A stretch of 55,537 bases of DNA. It comes from Halanaerobium sp. MA284_MarDTE_T2. Lineage in GTDB: Bacteria; Bacillota; Halanaerobiia; Halanaerobiales; Halanaerobiaceae. The stretch covers positions 1-55,537 of the forward strand of contig NZ_QPJE01000015.1 of the NCBI RefSeq assembly GCF_003337245.1, written 5' to 3'. The stretch's first letter is position 1. Each line of letters begins with the position of its first letter. The position numbers were made by a program, and so were the translations under genes. The notes under the pieces were generated by a model. The model did no database searches and was not told the DNA's origin. It saw nothing but the letters and a program-made list of their open reading frames with translations. Positions 917 through 52,829 of this stretch are shown in pieces.

Positions 917-2104
917 ATGAATAGCAATTCGGATTTAAAAAAACTTCGGGAATCTCTTTTTTCTGAAATAGAAAATTTAAAAGAAGAAGCCTTTTACATC
1001 AATGATTATATTGCTGAAAATCCTGAATTAGGTTACAGAGAATACAAAGCTGCCTCTCTACTAACAGAAATTCTTGCTGACCACAATTTTAGCATAGAAA
1101 AAAATCTCTCAGGTATCGAAACTGCTTTCAGGGCCAGCTATAATTTTAATGGAGATGGACCGACTATTGCTTTTCTCTGTGAATATGATGCACTGCCGAA
1201 TATAGGACATGGCTGTGGACACAATATGATTGCAGCAATGAGTACAGCTGCCGGAATTGCTTTAAGTAAACTGAACATAAAAGGAGGTAAAATTGTAGTT
1301 ATCGGCTGTCCGGCTGAAGAAACAGGTGGAGCTAAAGTACAGATGACAGAAACAGGTGTTTTTGATAATATAGACTGTGCAATGCTTCTCCATCCTTCCA
1401 ATATTAATCAGGTCTATTCTACAACACTGGCAATAAAAGCAATTCAGTTTAATTTTCATGGTCAAACTGCTCATGCTGCTGGAGCTCCAGAGAAGGGCAT
1501 AAATGCACTGGATGGAGTAATACAGTTTTTTAATGGCATTAATGCACTGCGAGAACATTTGCGGGATGATGCTCGGATACATGGTATTATTACAAATGGT
1601 GGAGAAGCTGCCAATATTGTACCCGATGAAGCTGAAGCTCAATTCTACTTCAGGGCCAGAGATAAAAAATACCTGCAGGAAATTATCAAAAAAGCGGAAA
1701 ATACTGCTGAAGGAGCAGCTTTAATGACAGGATGTAAAGTCGAATGGAAGGAATACGAAAATCCCAATGATGATCTCAGACCAAATCGGATGCTGGCAGA
1801 TATTTTTGAGCAGAGTATGAAAGAAATCGGAACCAATAAAATAGAACCAGCAGCACACCACTACGGATCATCAGATATGGGAAATGTGAGTCATGTTATC
1901 CCTGTTATTCACCCATATATTAATCTGGGCAGTGAACTTACAGGACATACAAGAGAACTCGCAGAAAAAACCACTACTAAAGAAGGTCATACTGTTTTGA
2001 TAGATGGAATAAAAGCTCTGGCACTAACAGGACTTAAAATTTATGGTGACAGGCAAAAATTAGAAAAAATAAAAAAAGAATTTAAAAAAACCTGCTCTAA
2101 TTAA
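917..2104 (+). CDS. M20 family amidohydrolase / peptidase
   Basis: Cytoplasmic metal-dependent amidohydrolase of the M20D group (AbgB/ACY1L2-like), which cleaves N-acyl or dipeptide bonds. Residues 88-102 carry CEYDALPNIGHGCGH, with Cys100 and His102 as expected metal ligands. PAEETGG at 132-138 holds the catalytic and metal-binding glutamates, a later LHPSN supplies another histidine, and the dimerisation insert begins near GQTAHAAG. The 395-residue length is normal. It is transcribed alone; its stop overlaps that of otsB on the other strand inside a terminator loop. Substrate cannot be set from sequence; p-aminobenzoyl-glutamate or beta-alanyl dipeptides are possibilities from relatives. 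Confidence 0.85.
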   Translation: MNSNSDLKKLRESLFSEIENLKEEAFYINDYIAENPELGYREYKAASLLTEILADHNFSIEKNLSGIETAFRASYNFNGDGPTIAFLCEYDALPNIGHGCGHNMIAAMSTAAGIALSKLNIKGGKIVVIGCPAEETGGAKVQMTETGVFDNIDCAMLLHPSNINQVYSTTLAIKAIQFNFHGQTAHAAGAPEKGINALDGVIQFFNGINALREHLRDDARIHGIITNGGEAANIVPDEAEAQFYFRARDKKYLQEIIKKAENTAEGAALMTGCKVEWKEYENPNDDLRPNRMLADIFEQSMKEIGTNKIEPAAHHYGSSDMGNVSHVIPVIHPYINLGSELTGHTRELAEKTTTKEGHTVLIDGIKALALTGLKIYGDRQKLEKIKKEFKKTCSN

Positions 2105-2114
2105 AGCAGGTTTT
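2087..2114. terminator. Bidirectional terminator holding two overlapping stop codons
   Basis: AAAACCTGCT (2087-2096) pairs perfectly with AGCAGGTTTT (2105-2114) around an 8-base loop. The loop contains the TAA of the M20 gene (2102-2104) and the complement of the otsB stop (2101-2103). A-tracts on one side and T-tracts on the other make it usable in both directions. Confidence 0.85.
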
Positions 2115-2892
2115 GCAAAAATAAATATACTTCTTCTGGATTATTTAGATAATATTCAGCAGATGTGTGTAAATCACCACTATTTTTTACGTAAATACTC
2201 AATCCTTTTTCAATTACAGCAAACGCATCTTCATCAGTCCTATCATCACCAAGATAAATATTATACCCACTATTAAGATTATACTGTTTTTTAAATCTGT
2301 CAGCTATATAATTTACTGCTTTTCCCTTATTCCAACCAGCAGGCCTAATTTCTACAACCTGACGTCCGGAAATAACTTCCAGATTATCTAAAGATAATTT
2401 TTTAATTTTAGTTTCCAAAGTTTTTTGGACAGATACTTTCTCCAGATCATTATTACAGTGAAAAGCAGCTGCAAAACCCTTATCCTCAATTTTTATATCA
2501 TCATTTATTTTTAATTCAATATCTGATAATAATTCTTCAAATACAGATCTAAATTCATCTTTTTTATAAATGGGATAAATAACCTCTTCTGCAAAATTGA
2601 GATCAATTTCCAGTCCATGGCTTCCTGCATAATTTAAACCCTTTAATTTCAGCATAGACTCCAGATCATTTAGTGCTCTCCCGGAAATCAAGCATATATA
2701 TAGATCTGACCTGCAAAGCAGCCTTTTTAATACCGCTTTAATTCCCGGAAAAGCATCTGCCTGCTCCGGTTTATCAGAAAAAGGAGCCAGAGTACCATCA
2801 TAATCGAGAAAAAGAAAAATATTTTCTGCTGCTTCAATTTTATTTTTTACTTCTTTTAGACTTCTCTCCTGCAGAAGGTATTTTTTATTCAT
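2101..2892 (-). CDS. otsB: Trehalose-6-phosphate phosphatase
   Basis: HAD-superfamily phosphatase converting trehalose-6-phosphate to trehalose, a compatible solute. The HAD motifs are visible: DYDGT with nucleophile Asp30 and Asp32, LISGR near 68-72, GWNKGKAV near 187-193, and GDDRTDED at 215-222. The 263-residue length fits OtsB. It overlaps the end of otsA by 8 bp, so the two are translationally coupled and transcribed together. Its own stop sits in the bidirectional terminator shared with the M20 gene. Confidence 0.93.
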   Translation of the reverse strand: MNKKYLLQERSLKEVKNKIEAAENIFLFLDYDGTLAPFSDKPEQADAFPGIKAVLKRLLCRSDLYICLISGRALNDLESMLKLKGLNYAGSHGLEIDLNFAEEVIYPIYKKDEFRSVFEELLSDIELKINDDIKIEDKGFAAAFHCNNDLEKVSVQKTLETKIKKLSLDNLEVISGRQVVEIRPAGWNKGKAVNYIADRFKKQYNLNSGYNIYLGDDRTDEDAFAVIEKGLSIYVKNSGDLHTSAEYYLNNPEEVYLFLQNLL

Positions 2893-4470: not shown

Positions 4471-4480
4471 GATGAATATC

Positions 4481-5446
4481 TTGCAAATTATAACTATTTC
4501 CAGACAGACAGCAAGTGGTGGTGACGAAATAGCAGAAGAACTTGCAAATCGGCTGGGGCTAAAACTTATTAATCGTGATTTTATTTTAAAAAACTGGCTC
4601 CCCCAGGTTGCTGATGAACATCAGCTGCATATGCTTCAGCAGAGTTCCAAATTTTACACCAAAGCAATAGATAATAAATCCGATAATAATCAGACTTTTG
4701 CTGATTACATAGAAAAAAAATTAATAGAGCTGGCTGAAACACAGAATTTATTAATTGTAGGGTTGGGGTCTCATGTAATATTCCGCCATCACCCTGGTGG
4801 TATCCATATCAAGATAGCAGCTTCTCAGGAACAGAGAATAAAAAAACTAAATAAAAAATATGGCCTTCCCCGAGAACAGGCTGAACGGTCAATTGAATTA
4901 AGTGACCGCAAGCGGAGGCGCTATGTATGGAGAGTTTTTAATGAAGACTGGTCAGATCTCACCCTTTATCATATTTCTCTAAACAGTGATGGATTATCTA
5001 CAGAACAGGCTCTTACAATTTTAATGAGTTTAATAGACTGCAAAAAAGAAAATCCGGAACCACTTGCTGATCCTGAAAAAAAAGAAAAACCTGAAAAAGA
5101 AAAAACAGAATATAATTTTGCCCATCCCAGTGAAAAAGAATTTGCCAAAATACTGGACATGCACCACATTAAATGGAAATATGAGCCGACAGAATTTCCT
5201 CTCGAGTGGGATGCTGAAGGTAATATCAGAATGGGATTTAGACCGGACTTTTATTTGACTGAATATGATACTTATATTGAATTAACAACAATGAACCGCA
5301 AATATGTTACAGAAAAAAACAAAAAAGTTCGCCTGCTGCAGGAAATTTATCCACATATAAATATAAAGATTGTTTACAAAAAAGACTTTAACAGCCTTAT
5401 TGATAAGTTTGAATTAAATGGAAATAGTGAGGAGGAAAATAAATGA
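4481..5446 (+). CDS. Cytidylate-kinase-like protein fused to PD-(D/E)XK-like domain
   Basis: Two-domain protein of about 321 residues. The N-terminal ~190 residues match the cytidylate kinase-like family (ITISRQTASGGDEIAEELA, with the lysine-less loop typical of that family). A charged Lys/Glu/Pro linker follows. The last ~105 residues resemble a PD-(D/E)XK nuclease fold: a helix with SEKEF, then RPDFYLTEYDTYIELT, a PD...ExT arrangement lacking the usual lysine. TTG at 4481 is preferred since AAAGGA lies eight bases upstream; an ATG at 4472 is too close to the RBS. Its stop overlaps the HPRT start by 4 bp (ATGA). Kinase and nuclease activities are both inferred. Confidence 0.7.
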   Translation: MQIITISRQTASGGDEIAEELANRLGLKLINRDFILKNWLPQVADEHQLHMLQQSSKFYTKAIDNKSDNNQTFADYIEKKLIELAETQNLLIVGLGSHVIFRHHPGGIHIKIAASQEQRIKKLNKKYGLPREQAERSIELSDRKRRRYVWRVFNEDWSDLTLYHISLNSDGLSTEQALTILMSLIDCKKENPEPLADPEKKEKPEKEKTEYNFAHPSEKEFAKILDMHHIKWKYEPTEFPLEWDAEGNIRMGFRPDFYLTEYDTYIELTTMNRKYVTEKNKKVRLLQEIYPHINIKIVYKKDFNSLIDKFELNGNSEEENK

Positions 5447-5973
5447 GAGAAGATGAAAGATTGGGGAAAATAGTACTGTCAAAAGAAAAAATAAAAAATC
5501 GAATTTCAGAATTAGCTGACGAAATTAATGCTGATTATCAGAATAAAGAGTTAATAGTTGTAAGTATCTTAAAAAGTTCTCTCTATTTTATGGCTGACCT
5601 GACAAGAAAGCTGGACCTTCCATTAAAACTTGATTTTTTAGAGTTAAGCCACTCCACAAATGAAGACAATACAGGTGTTATAAGAGTTATTAGAGATTTA
5701 GAATTTAGTATCACCGGCAGAGAAATTCTGGTGATAGAAAATATAATAAAAACAGGTTTAACCCACAGCTATCTTCTAAAAAATCTAAAAGCACGCAGCC
5801 CTGCCGGAATAAGCATCTGTACACTGCTTAATAATACTGATAAAAAACTAGTTGAACTTCCTATAGATTATGTTGGATTTGAAATATCTGAGCATTTTGT
5901 TGTAGGATATGGACTGGATTATAAAGAGAAATATAGAAATTTACCTTATATTGTAGAATATAATATAGAATAG
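5443..5973 (+). CDS. Hypoxanthine phosphoribosyltransferase-like protein, active site degenerate
   Basis: The 176-residue protein follows the HPRT fold end to end, including DYVGFEI and VVGYGLDYKEKYRNLPYI. Key motifs deviate from the family. The PPi loop LKGS is LKSS (43-46). The PRPP motif EDIIDTG is ENIIKTG (99-105), so the catalytic Asp position is Lys. The purine-contacting DK segment is NN (130-131). It probably cannot do normal base salvage and may be a binding or regulatory protein. It is translationally coupled (4-bp overlap) to the kinase-nuclease fusion. Family membership is secure; loss of activity is inference from these substitutions. Confidence 0.8.
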   Translation: MREDERLGKIVLSKEKIKNRISELADEINADYQNKELIVVSILKSSLYFMADLTRKLDLPLKLDFLELSHSTNEDNTGVIRVIRDLEFSITGREILVIENIIKTGLTHSYLLKNLKARSPAGISICTLLNNTDKKLVELPIDYVGFEISEHFVVGYGLDYKEKYRNLPYIVEYNIE

Positions 5974-7355: not shown

Positions 7356-8618
7356 GTGAAAAATTTTGAAAGATTAATAGGATTTGCAGCTGCTTTAATA
7401 GTATTAATTGGCGCTAAATTCTTTTTAAAAACAGATATTTTATTTTTTAGATTGCTTGTTGGTACAGGAATAGGATATACACTGACAAGAGCGTACACCG
7501 GATTTGCTGGAAGTGTAAACAGAGCCTACAGAACAGGTTCTACTAAATTAATGAGAACCCTGATGTTTATGTTTTTTATAACAGCACTTCTTACAACTGC
7601 ATTTCTTTTTGGAAAAGATCCTGCCAGCTATAATCTGTGGATCAACCCAATAAATACCGGTCTTCTTTTGGGAGGATTTTTATTTGGATTTGGAATGTCT
7701 CTTTCTGTATGCTGTGCAACTGGAGTTTTAACTGACCTGCCAGTAGGACTTCCAAGGGCATTTATTACACTTATTTTTTTCGGCATAGGTGTTTTCCTCG
7801 GCTTCCCGATACAAAATACAGCCAGCTGGGTTAAAGAATCATGGTACAGTACTTATATAGGTTATAGAACATCTGGTGGTGTATTTCTGCCTGACCTTTT
7901 CCAGGGAGATGGGTTTGAAGGTTATCTGGGAGGACTGGCATTTCTTGGCGGTCTCTGTCTTCTTTTCATAATTTTATCTTATTTCTATGAGCATTATCAG
8001 ATCAAAACAGGCAAATATAAAGGTCTTCCAATAGAAAAGGTTCAGGATGAAGTAGATTCAATCGATCTAAATAATTTTAAACTATTTAGTTCAGATACCT
8101 ATTATCACTTTTTTGAAAAACCCTGGACTCTAAAACAGGGTGGAATAGTTCTGGCGATGATCTTTACACTTATGATGGGTATTACCAGAGCCGGATGGGG
8201 TGCTTCTACTCCTTATGGAATCTGGTTTGGTAAATTTTTAATGCTATTTGGTATTTCTGCTGAATCTCTGGCAGAGTTTACACATATGTCAGCATCAGTA
8301 TTTGATCTGCCATTTTTTGAACATCAAATTTCTGTACAGAATTTTGGTATTATTGTTGGTGCAGTAATTTATCCTCTTACAGCCGCTAAATTATCCGAAT
8401 CATTTACTGCCGGATTAAATATTTCTAAAAAAGAAGCATTACTATATGCACTTGGTGGTATAACAATGGGACTTGGAACTCGTTTTGCAAATGGATGTAA
8501 TGTTGGAGCTCTCTATACACCAATTGCAAACTTCTCACTGTCTGGATGGTTTTTCCTAGTATTTATGATAATTGGTGGTTTTGTAAGTAATAAATTTACT
8601 GATAAAATTTACAGCTAG
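7356..8618 (+). CDS. YeeE/YedE family sulfur (thiosulfate) transporter
   Basis: Integral membrane protein of 420 residues with about nine or ten hydrophobic segments, in the two-repeat YeeE/YedE (DUF395) arrangement. Conserved cysteine-bearing segments are SLSVCCATGVLTDL in the first repeat and TRFANGCNVGALY in the second. Characterised members (TsuA) import thiosulfate; others are linked to selenium. The start is GTG at 7356 with GGGAGGT six bases before it. It lies 44 bp upstream of a persulfide/CoA-disulfide reductase, supporting uptake of a sulfur compound to be reduced. The exact substrate is inference. Confidence 0.8.
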   Translation: MKNFERLIGFAAALIVLIGAKFFLKTDILFFRLLVGTGIGYTLTRAYTGFAGSVNRAYRTGSTKLMRTLMFMFFITALLTTAFLFGKDPASYNLWINPINTGLLLGGFLFGFGMSLSVCCATGVLTDLPVGLPRAFITLIFFGIGVFLGFPIQNTASWVKESWYSTYIGYRTSGGVFLPDLFQGDGFEGYLGGLAFLGGLCLLFIILSYFYEHYQIKTGKYKGLPIEKVQDEVDSIDLNNFKLFSSDTYYHFFEKPWTLKQGGIVLAMIFTLMMGITRAGWGASTPYGIWFGKFLMLFGISAESLAEFTHMSASVFDLPFFEHQISVQNFGIIVGAVIYPLTAAKLSESFTAGLNISKKEALLYALGGITMGLGTRFANGCNVGALYTPIANFSLSGWFFLVFMIIGGFVSNKFTDKIYS

Positions 8619-8662
8619 TAATTTGGCTTTCAAAAATAAAATTTTACAGGAGGAAATTAATT

Positions 8663-10360
8663 ATGAGTAATAAAATTGTTGTTATTGGTGGTGTAGCTGG
8701 TGGTGCATCTGCTGCTGCCAGAGCCAGAAGATTGGACGAATTAGCAGAAATAGTTATGTTTGAGAGAGGTCCACATGTTTCTTTTTCCAACTGCTGTCTT
8801 CCCTATCGTCTAAGTGATACAATTGACAGCTGTGATGACCTTGTCTTAATGAGTCCTAACTGCTTTAAAACTCAGTACAATATTGATGCAAGGGTAAATA
8901 GTGAAGTCACTAAAATAAAAAGAAAAGAAAAAAAGGTAGCAGTCAAAAATTTAGAGACTGGTGAAGAATATGAAGAATCCTATGATAAACTAGTACTCTC
9001 ACCCGGTGCTAATCCAATTCTTCCAGGAAGTATCAAGGGAGTTAAAAAAGATAATGTATTTACAATCAGAAATGTAGTGGACATTGATAAATTATATAGT
9101 TATATTAATGAAAACAATATTGAAGATATTGCTGTTATAGGTGCTGGATTTATCGGTATTGAAGTTGCTGAAAATCTTCATAATGCCGGCAAAAATGTAA
9201 GTCTTGTAGAGGCAATGGATCAGGTAATGGCTCCTTTTGATTTCGATATGGCACAGCTGCTGCATAAAGAACTTTATGATAAAAAAGTAAATCTTGTTTT
9301 AAATGATGCTCTTGTGGAAATTACTGATGACTCTATTATCTTAAAGTCAGGAAAAAAAATCGATGCCAAAGCTGTTGTAATGGCAATTGGTGTTTCTCCA
9401 GAAACAGATCTGGCTAAAGATGCAGGACTGGAAATAGGAGAAACAGGTGGAATCAAAGTAGACCACAATTATCAGACAAGTGATGAGGATATTTATGCTG
9501 TTGGAGATGCTGTAGAAGTTTACAGCAGACTAACACACAAAAACACAAGACTGGCTTTAGCAGGGCCAGCACAGAGACAGGCAAGAGCTGCTGCTGACCA
9601 TATCTATGGTATCCCGCACAGAAACAATGGCACTATTGGCTCCTCAATAGTTAGAGTCTTTGACTTAAATGCTGCTTCTACTGGTTTAAACGAAAAAACC
9701 GCAAAAGAAGCCGGTATTTCTTATGATGTTGTATATGTTATACCTGGAGACAAAGTTGGTTTAATGCCGGAAAGCAATCCAATGCATTTTAAACTTATTT
9801 ATGAATACCCGACAGGAAAAATTATCGGTGCCCAGGCCATCGGTAGAGGTAATGTAGATAAAAGAATAGATGTAATTGCAGCACTTATTTTAATGGATGG
9901 AACATTAGAAGATCTCAAAGAAATGGAACTGTGTTATGCACCTTTATTTGGTACAGCAAAAGATGTGGTTAACCATGCAGCACTTGTAGGATTAAATCTA
10001 CTCAATGGGGTATTTGAACAGGTGAGAGTTACAGAAGTAAGAGAACTGGTAGAAAATGATGCATTTATAGTAGATGTCCGCGAAGAAGATGAATATGCGA
10101 AAGGACATCTTGTTAATTCTGTTAATATTCCTTTAAGTGAATTAAGAGAAAGAACTGATGAAATCCCTAAAGATCAGCCTGTATATTTGCACTGCCGTTC
10201 AGCACAGAGAAGCTACAATGCTGTAATGGCTCTACAGGGAATGGGTTATGATAATGTGTATAATATCTCAGGATCATTTCTCGGCATCTGCTGCTACGAA
10301 TATTATCTGGATCAAACAACAGATAGAGAAAAAATTGTAACTGAATATAATTTTGAGTAA
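8663..10360 (+). CDS. CoA-disulfide / persulfide reductase with C-terminal rhodanese
   Basis: FAD/NAD(P)H pyridine-nucleotide-disulfide oxidoreductase of 565 residues fused to rhodanese, as in Npsr and CoADR-RHD. An FAD-binding GGVAGGASAAARARR opens the protein. The redox motif SFSNCCLPY places Cys44 at the usual position, with a second Cys45 where relatives have Gly. A second nucleotide-binding site is AVIGAGFIGIEVAE. The rhodanese domain covers roughly 465-560 with active loop HCRSAQRS. It likely reduces CoA-persulfide or polysulfide to sulfide with NADH. It follows the YeeE transporter with its own AGGAGG site, so the pair form an uptake-reduction operon. Confidence 0.88.
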   Translation: MSNKIVVIGGVAGGASAAARARRLDELAEIVMFERGPHVSFSNCCLPYRLSDTIDSCDDLVLMSPNCFKTQYNIDARVNSEVTKIKRKEKKVAVKNLETGEEYEESYDKLVLSPGANPILPGSIKGVKKDNVFTIRNVVDIDKLYSYINENNIEDIAVIGAGFIGIEVAENLHNAGKNVSLVEAMDQVMAPFDFDMAQLLHKELYDKKVNLVLNDALVEITDDSIILKSGKKIDAKAVVMAIGVSPETDLAKDAGLEIGETGGIKVDHNYQTSDEDIYAVGDAVEVYSRLTHKNTRLALAGPAQRQARAAADHIYGIPHRNNGTIGSSIVRVFDLNAASTGLNEKTAKEAGISYDVVYVIPGDKVGLMPESNPMHFKLIYEYPTGKIIGAQAIGRGNVDKRIDVIAALILMDGTLEDLKEMELCYAPLFGTAKDVVNHAALVGLNLLNGVFEQVRVTEVRELVENDAFIVDVREEDEYAKGHLVNSVNIPLSELRERTDEIPKDQPVYLHCRSAQRSYNAVMALQGMGYDNVYNISGSFLGICCYEYYLDQTTDREKIVTEYNFE

Positions 10361-38255: not shown

Positions 38256-38658
38256 TTTATTAAAAGCCCCTTTTGAGTTTTTTGAATCTTAAAGAAAAGA
38301 AGATTAAAAAAAATAAAAATCCGATGTTAAATAAAAATAAAGAGATAGGATTAAATGTCTTCTTTCCCAGCCAGGAAGTAAATTAGTTTCCCAACAGACC
38401 TATTGATCTTATAATCATAATTTATACCTTAGTTTTTAAGAATTGAAGACTCATATTTTGCTTTTTTAATTATATCCTATTTTTATGTCTAATTCAAACC
38501 GTGCATTTAATTATGCAATCAGTCAGGAATTAAATTTTCTGCATAAATAATTGGATTTTAATGTGATTCTGTATTTTGCAAATCATATTAAAGTTTAACC
38601 AAAAGAAGACAGGCTAGATCAGTTTCTTTCACTTTTTAAAAATCTAATTTCACTATTG
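38256..38658. other. Regulatory region upstream of wtpA
   Basis: No gene seen. On the minus strand around 38335-38405, ATAGG...CCTAT can enclose GTTGGGAA/TTCCTGGC (with G-U pairs) and GTCT/AGAC, a possible leader RNA. TGCATTTAATTATGCA (38502-38517) is an imperfect palindrome that could be an operator. Both are suggestions only; a Moco-type assignment is not supported by any motif I recognise. Confidence 0.35.
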
Positions 38659-52576: not shown

Positions 52577-52829
52577 AAAAAACTCCCATCCCTAAAAAGG
52601 GACGAGAGTTATATTCCCGTGGTGCCACCCTACTGGCAGATTATTATTATCTGCCTCTTTGAAAAAATAACGGATTTTTCCCGGAAAAGACTACTTGATT
52701 TCATCTTTTCAGCTCCCAGGTGGATTCAATAATCAATCTGGCTGGTTTTCATCATCCACCAGCTTTCTAAGACAGATTAGATAATTTACTATTCCTGTTC
52801 AATGCTTTTCTAAACTGGCTATTAATTTG
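52577..52829 (-). ncRNA. T-box leader of serS (specifier UCC)
   Basis: The minus-strand leader has the T-box AGGGTGGCACCACGGG (52632-52617), a terminator stem CTCTCGTCCC/GGGATGGGAG with a T-run (52608-52577), and a Stem I with AGAAAGCTGGTGG. The specifier is read as UCC in GAAUCCACC (52724-52722), the usual spacing before ACC. Uncharged tRNA-Ser(GGA) would therefore stabilise the antiterminator and raise serS expression. Confidence 0.9.

Follow-up and report, generated by a model that had tools for sequence, protein, structure and literature searches.

CARF-fused CRISPR ancillary nucleases are ligand-gated PD-(D/E)XK effectors, and the gene pair described here would resemble them in broad principle, with a nuclease under the control of a module that binds nucleotides; it differs in that the putative sensor has the HPRT fold and is accompanied by neither a cyclic-nucleotide synthase nor a defence context. 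Its parts have separate relatives: the Cytidylate_kin2 family (PF13189), which includes 3hdt and 3fdi, solved proteins without an assigned function; phage T7 endonuclease I (PF05367; 3cae, 1m0d, 2pfj and 1fzr); and bacterial HprT (TIGR01203). In the PD-(D/E)XK nucleases of the DUF1626 type, the motif III lysine is replaced by threonine and the motif IV helix has positively charged residues, and a working nuclease variant with such a migrated lysine has been proposed (PMC1913061). In the ppGpp-HPRT structure, Lys131 binds the guanine oxygen, Glu99 and Asp100 contact the 5' side and Arg165 the 3' phosphates (PMC6783271).

The window, i.e. the whole stretch of 55,537 nucleotides that was analysed, comes from Halanaerobium sp. 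MA284_MarDTE_T2 and encodes a kinase-like domain (KIN) joined through a charged linker to a nuclease-like domain (DOM), followed by an HPRT-like gene that shares 4 bp (ATGA) with KIN-DOM (Table 1). Both the three-part fusion and the overlap had been recognized in the first-pass annotation, and the ORFs and profile searches bear them out. The alternative TTG start is preceded by AAAGG at a spacing of 9 nt. The AGGAGG inside KIN-DOM makes translational coupling of the HPRT-like gene likely. The genes on either side of the pair are encoded on the minus strand: before it, a trehalose-phosphate synthase with its phosphatase assigned by eye, and after it, a gene product that weakly matches M29 peptidases.

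Table 1. Coordinates of the KIN-DOM/HPRT-like locus within the window
Feature	Position	Strand	Basis or remark
KIN-DOM gene	4472..5446	+	ORF, ATG start; 324 aa
KIN-DOM alternative start (TTG)	4481	+	Coordinate used in the first-pass annotation; 321 aa if used
Cytidylate_kin2 domain (KIN), residues 6-173	4487..4990	+	PF13189, E 2e-34; Z 23.2/22.8 to 3hdt/3fdi (PDB fold search)
Charged linker KIN/DOM, about residues 194-213	5051..5110	+	pLDDT <50 at 204-211; variable in alignment
DOM, T7-endonuclease-I-like PD-(D/E)XK fold (predicted), residues 214-314	5111..5413	+	Alignment, AF2, profile match
AGGAGG ribosome-binding site of HPRT-like gene, within KIN-DOM	5430..5435	+	Read from sequence
HPRT-like gene	5443..5973	+	ORF; 176 aa; linked-clade member (profiles, alignment)
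Altered loop I (pyrophosphate loop) ILKSS, HPRT-like	5566..5580	+	Alignment
Altered PRPP motif E99-N100-I-I-K103-T-G-L-T107, HPRT-like	5737..5763	+	Alignment; motif roles PMC6783271
N131 replacing purine-contact Lys131, HPRT-like	5833..5835	+	Alignment

A profile of 31 DOMs matched T7 endonuclease I in the PDB with an E-value of 1.2e-5, and PHROG resolvase and endonuclease families matched DOM at 3e-6 to 6e-5. On the window DOM, PF05367 (Phage endonuclease I) gave 17 bits, under its gathering score of 29.1. The AF2 model of KIN-DOM from 31 homologues had a mean pLDDT of 86.8 for the whole protein, with block values of about 70-88 over DOM, and its DOM elements follow the order helix-strand-strand-strand-helix-strand, as in T7 endonuclease I. 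In PDB fold searches with KIN-DOM, the matches were taken up by the kinase domain; the mixed matches from a viral fold library included Endonuclease I and a Holliday junction resolvase. Invariant across the 31 sequences are E221 (motif I), P258-D259 (motif II), E270-x-T272 (motif III) and the motif IV helix residues K282 and K285; T7 endonuclease I likewise has the motif I Glu, the PD, the motif III Glu and a basic motif IV helix. On these profiles and this model, DOM is a predicted PD-(D/E)XK-fold domain related to phage T7 endonuclease I. Unlike that enzyme, it has Thr in place of the motif III Lys in 31 of 31 sequences, has a kinase-like domain or HPRT as its fusion partner, stays below the Pfam gathering score and is not found on phages: viral contigs yielded no relative, and the phage search gave nothing closer than distant endonuclease I, with about 30% identity.

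The threonine in motif III may mean that DOM does not cleave. DUF1626, a different family that we liken to DOM by motif pattern alone, combines the same substitution with a charged motif IV helix. Since T7 endonuclease I has a basic patch in this helix too, the two invariant lysines fall short of proving a migration of the catalytic lysine in DOM. Separately, DOM is weakly matched by a PD-(D/E)XK-like stretch within UvrD-like helicases from Halanaerobium relatives (L018 and L020; the stretch reads QPDFCLPEYDIYLEHLG in L018); we rejected these helicases as members of the DOM family and regard them as other proteins carrying a nuclease-like stretch.

The HPRT-like protein of the window scores 177.8 bits with TIGR01203, over the curated cut-off of 150, and matches a solved HPRT at 1.6e-46. 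It shares with bacterial HprT the fold, the length, Glu99, Thr-Gly-x-Thr, Asp159 and Arg165, and its residue numbering coincides with that of Bacillus anthracis Hpt-1. The first-pass annotation had described changes in its pyrophosphate loop, catalytic Asp motif and base-contact motif, and the alignment places all of them: K44-S45 for the Lys-Gly of loop I, Asp100 to Asn, Asp103 to Lys and Lys131 to Asn. A tree built from 66 HPRTs linked to DOM and 61 ordinary ones places a single branch (SH-aLRT 98) between the two groups, and omitting the four motif columns does not abolish this split. The purine-contact Lys131 is present in 61/61 ordinary HPRTs and in 1/66 linked ones, that of Thermomicrobium roseum; for the catalytic Asp103, the counts are 61/61 and 15/66, the linked proteins having instead Arg (33), Gly (14), Lys (2) or Asn (2), with Gly or Arg common to whole subclades. 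On the tree, one change suffices to explain the loss of Lys131 and that of Asp103 takes three, so purine recognition was probably lost before the catalytic Asp. As Glu99 (65/66), Asp159 (66/66) and Arg165 (66/66) are kept almost everywhere, and Asp100 is found in 56/66, the phosphoribosyl site probably survives in the linked clade. The replacements of Asp100 and of the loop I Gly, by which the window protein departs from HprT beyond what the rest of the clade shows, are shared with other Halanaerobiaceae.

These patterns bear on what the partner might do. The first-pass annotation had taken it for a pseudo-enzyme, a reading in agreement with the Halanaerobiales branch and with the majority of the linked clade; the 15 linked HPRTs with Asp103, in contrast, may include active enzymes acting on another base. 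An alarmone as ligand, also suggested earlier, has become less likely: among the side chains that contact (p)ppGpp, the window protein keeps Glu99 and Arg165 and has replaced Asp100 and Lys131, and the loss of Lys131, seen in 65/66 linked HPRTs, argues against a (p)ppGpp sensor (PMC6783271) and not against PRPP.

The pair is conserved as a unit. In a set of 41 genomes, comprising the genome of the window and its relatives, KIN-DOM was present in 17, all of which have an extra HPRT-like gene directly downstream, while none of the 24 genomes without KIN-DOM has a second HPRT; the 17 genomes are related to one another and do not represent 17 independent events. A DOM scan of genome contigs found 39 loci, from Halanaerobiales, Saccharofermentans/Ruminococcaceae, Syntrophomonadaceae, Thermincola and Desulfitobacteriaceae, and 42 of 398 genomes of the phylum gave DOM matches, about 37 of them strong. 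Of the 69 loci fetched, some of them duplicates of each other, 68 have the HPRT-like gene immediately after KIN-DOM in the same orientation; the sole locus without an adjacent HPRT is L093 (KIN-DOM at 1207-2157, plus strand). The other genes around the pair vary between lineages in the fetched loci, and we therefore rejected a fixed third gene or a defence island, the flanks being mixed housekeeping genes. An ordinary HPRT is also encoded elsewhere in 31 of the 33 phylum genomes that were tested, the two genomes without one being 61% and 75% complete. Beyond Bacillota, a search of a plasmid collection gave one match, in T. roseum, where DOM and HPRT form a single 333-aa protein (TRD_RS14335, annotated hpt) with Asp103 replaced by Asn; the fusion is thus known from one genome.

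Distances between DOMs correlate with those between linked HPRTs after removal of the ordinary HPRT signal (partial r 0.53; 0/2000 permutations), as is expected of partners and also of linked genes. With the pair found again in dozens of genomes and the residue changes throughout a whole clade, both lie far beyond chance. Given this co-occurrence across many anaerobic bacteria and the partial fusion in another phylum, KIN-DOM and the HPRT-like protein very probably work together.

KIN reaches 119.7 bits with PF13189 (gathering score 28) and, like 3hdt and 3fdi in the alignment, has a P-loop without Lys; it differs from these solved relatives in carrying a C-terminal DOM. The (d)CMP kinase equivalog TIGR02173 gives 43.6 bits, below the cut-off of 102.1. 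Within the pair, KIN is the fastest-changing part and DOM the slowest. In L140 (1132-2526, minus strand) and L144 (823-1809, plus strand), KIN has lost the P-loop and is degenerate beside a conserved DOM and a conserved linked HPRT, and the T. roseum fusion has no KIN. These observations point to DOM and the HPRT-like protein as the core, and from them we infer that KIN is a dispensable, kinase-like accessory nucleotide-binding domain.

We tentatively favour, as a possibility still short of probable, a two-gene functional unit with this core, in which a PRPP- or nucleotide-binding HPRT-like subunit scaffolds or gates the nuclease-like DOM. KIN-DOM and the HPRT-like protein would form a complex, and the latter would bind PRPP or a phosphoribosyl nucleotide without performing purine salvage. 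Once ligand-bound, it would scaffold or gate DOM, which would cut or hold branched or damaged nucleic acid via E221, D259 and E270, with Lys282 or Lys285 standing in for the motif III Lys; KIN would contribute as an accessory nucleotide-binding domain, in keeping with its degeneration in one lineage and its absence from the T. roseum fusion. A model of the pair from Halanaerobium polyolivorans, a natural in-frame read-through with the stop read as Gly, had a pTM of 0.44, with DOM poorly modelled, and revealed no sign of an interface. More doubtful is the broader claim of a new type of ligand-gated enzyme acting on nucleic acid, conserved in Bacillota and in one or more other phyla, in which a non-catalytic, HPRT-derived PRPP/nucleotide sensor would control a nuclease of the junction type whose lysine has migrated.

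Other functions can be imagined for the same genes. With Lys131 and Asp103 replaced, the linked HPRT could catalyse phosphoribosyl transfer to a new kind of base; KIN would phosphorylate the monophosphate so formed, and DOM would have a structural or substrate-feeding role. A phosphoribosyltransferase beside an NMP-kinase-like domain is chemically sensible, the phosphoribosyl-site residues are mostly kept, Asp103 persists in 15/66 and whole subclades share Gly or Arg at 103. Such a metabolic role is nevertheless rather unlikely: DOM and HPRT persist where KIN is degenerate or absent, the KIN P-loop lacks Lys as in its PDB relatives, the loss of Asp100 and the loop I Gly in the window lineage should weaken PRPP binding, and it is DOM that changes most slowly. 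Alternatively, DOM might be nuclease-dead and serve just to bind nucleic acid or to tether the two proteins to each other, the pair regulating a nucleic-acid or nucleotide process. The threonine in all 31 DOMs and the loss of catalytic residues in the partner HPRT as well would agree with this; three invariant metal-binding acids and two invariant motif IV lysines are unlike relaxed constraint, and with a working variant of this kind already proposed (PMC1913061) we judge a dead DOM to be distinctly unlikely.

An anti-phage defence pair, in which the HPRT-like subunit would sense a nucleotide change on infection and release the nuclease, could explain why a nuclease has a putative nucleotide-binding partner and why the distribution is patchy, with the 42 matches (about 37 strong) in 398 phylum genomes and variable neighbourhoods. 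PADLOC gave no system match for the pair, the best being a weak 17-bit nuclease-motif match, and the 80 flanking proteins comprised no defence genes: they are mixed housekeeping proteins with generic PADLOC matches only. As DOM is moreover slow-changing and conserved clade-wide, a defence role, which the first-pass annotation had raised, finds no support here and is very improbable. Taking the annotation at face value, as an ordinary duplicated HPRT beside an unrelated gene, accords with the passing of the TIGR01203 cut-off and is hardly credible in view of the near-obligatory pairing and the T. roseum fusion; we rejected it on the separate clade with its conserved loss of the purine contact. 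Having passed that curated cut-off, the window gene has probably been misnamed as HPRT.

The first-pass annotation knew of no described system with this pairing, and our literature search, limited to open-licence papers, likewise found none. The folds of the components are known, and what appears undescribed is the way they are combined, the side-clade of HPRTs and the endonuclease-I-like domain with Glu-x-Thr. If the favoured reading of a gated two-gene unit is true, many anaerobes contain an undescribed functional unit that possibly links nucleotide pools (PRPP) to nucleic-acid processing. The linked clade also traces an ordered path from an enzyme to a likely pseudo-enzyme, the base-contact Lys going first and the catalytic Asp after it. 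Annotation likely assigns two HPRTs to a genome that has the pair while salvage is probably performed by one only, and metabolic models or studies of gene essentiality can be misled by this double credit.

Elsewhere in the window, molybdenum/tungsten cofactor riboswitches were detected above the gathering score at 442-554 and 38343-38460, both on the minus strand, the former upstream of a minus-strand ferredoxin-type ORF (28-426), together with a T-box leader at 52595-52811 (minus strand; 150 bits). By eye, 7356-10360 (plus strand) encodes a YeeE/YedE-transporter-like multi-pass membrane protein, then an FAD-dependent disulfide reductase with a C-terminal rhodanese-like domain, and looks like a sulfur-compound unit.
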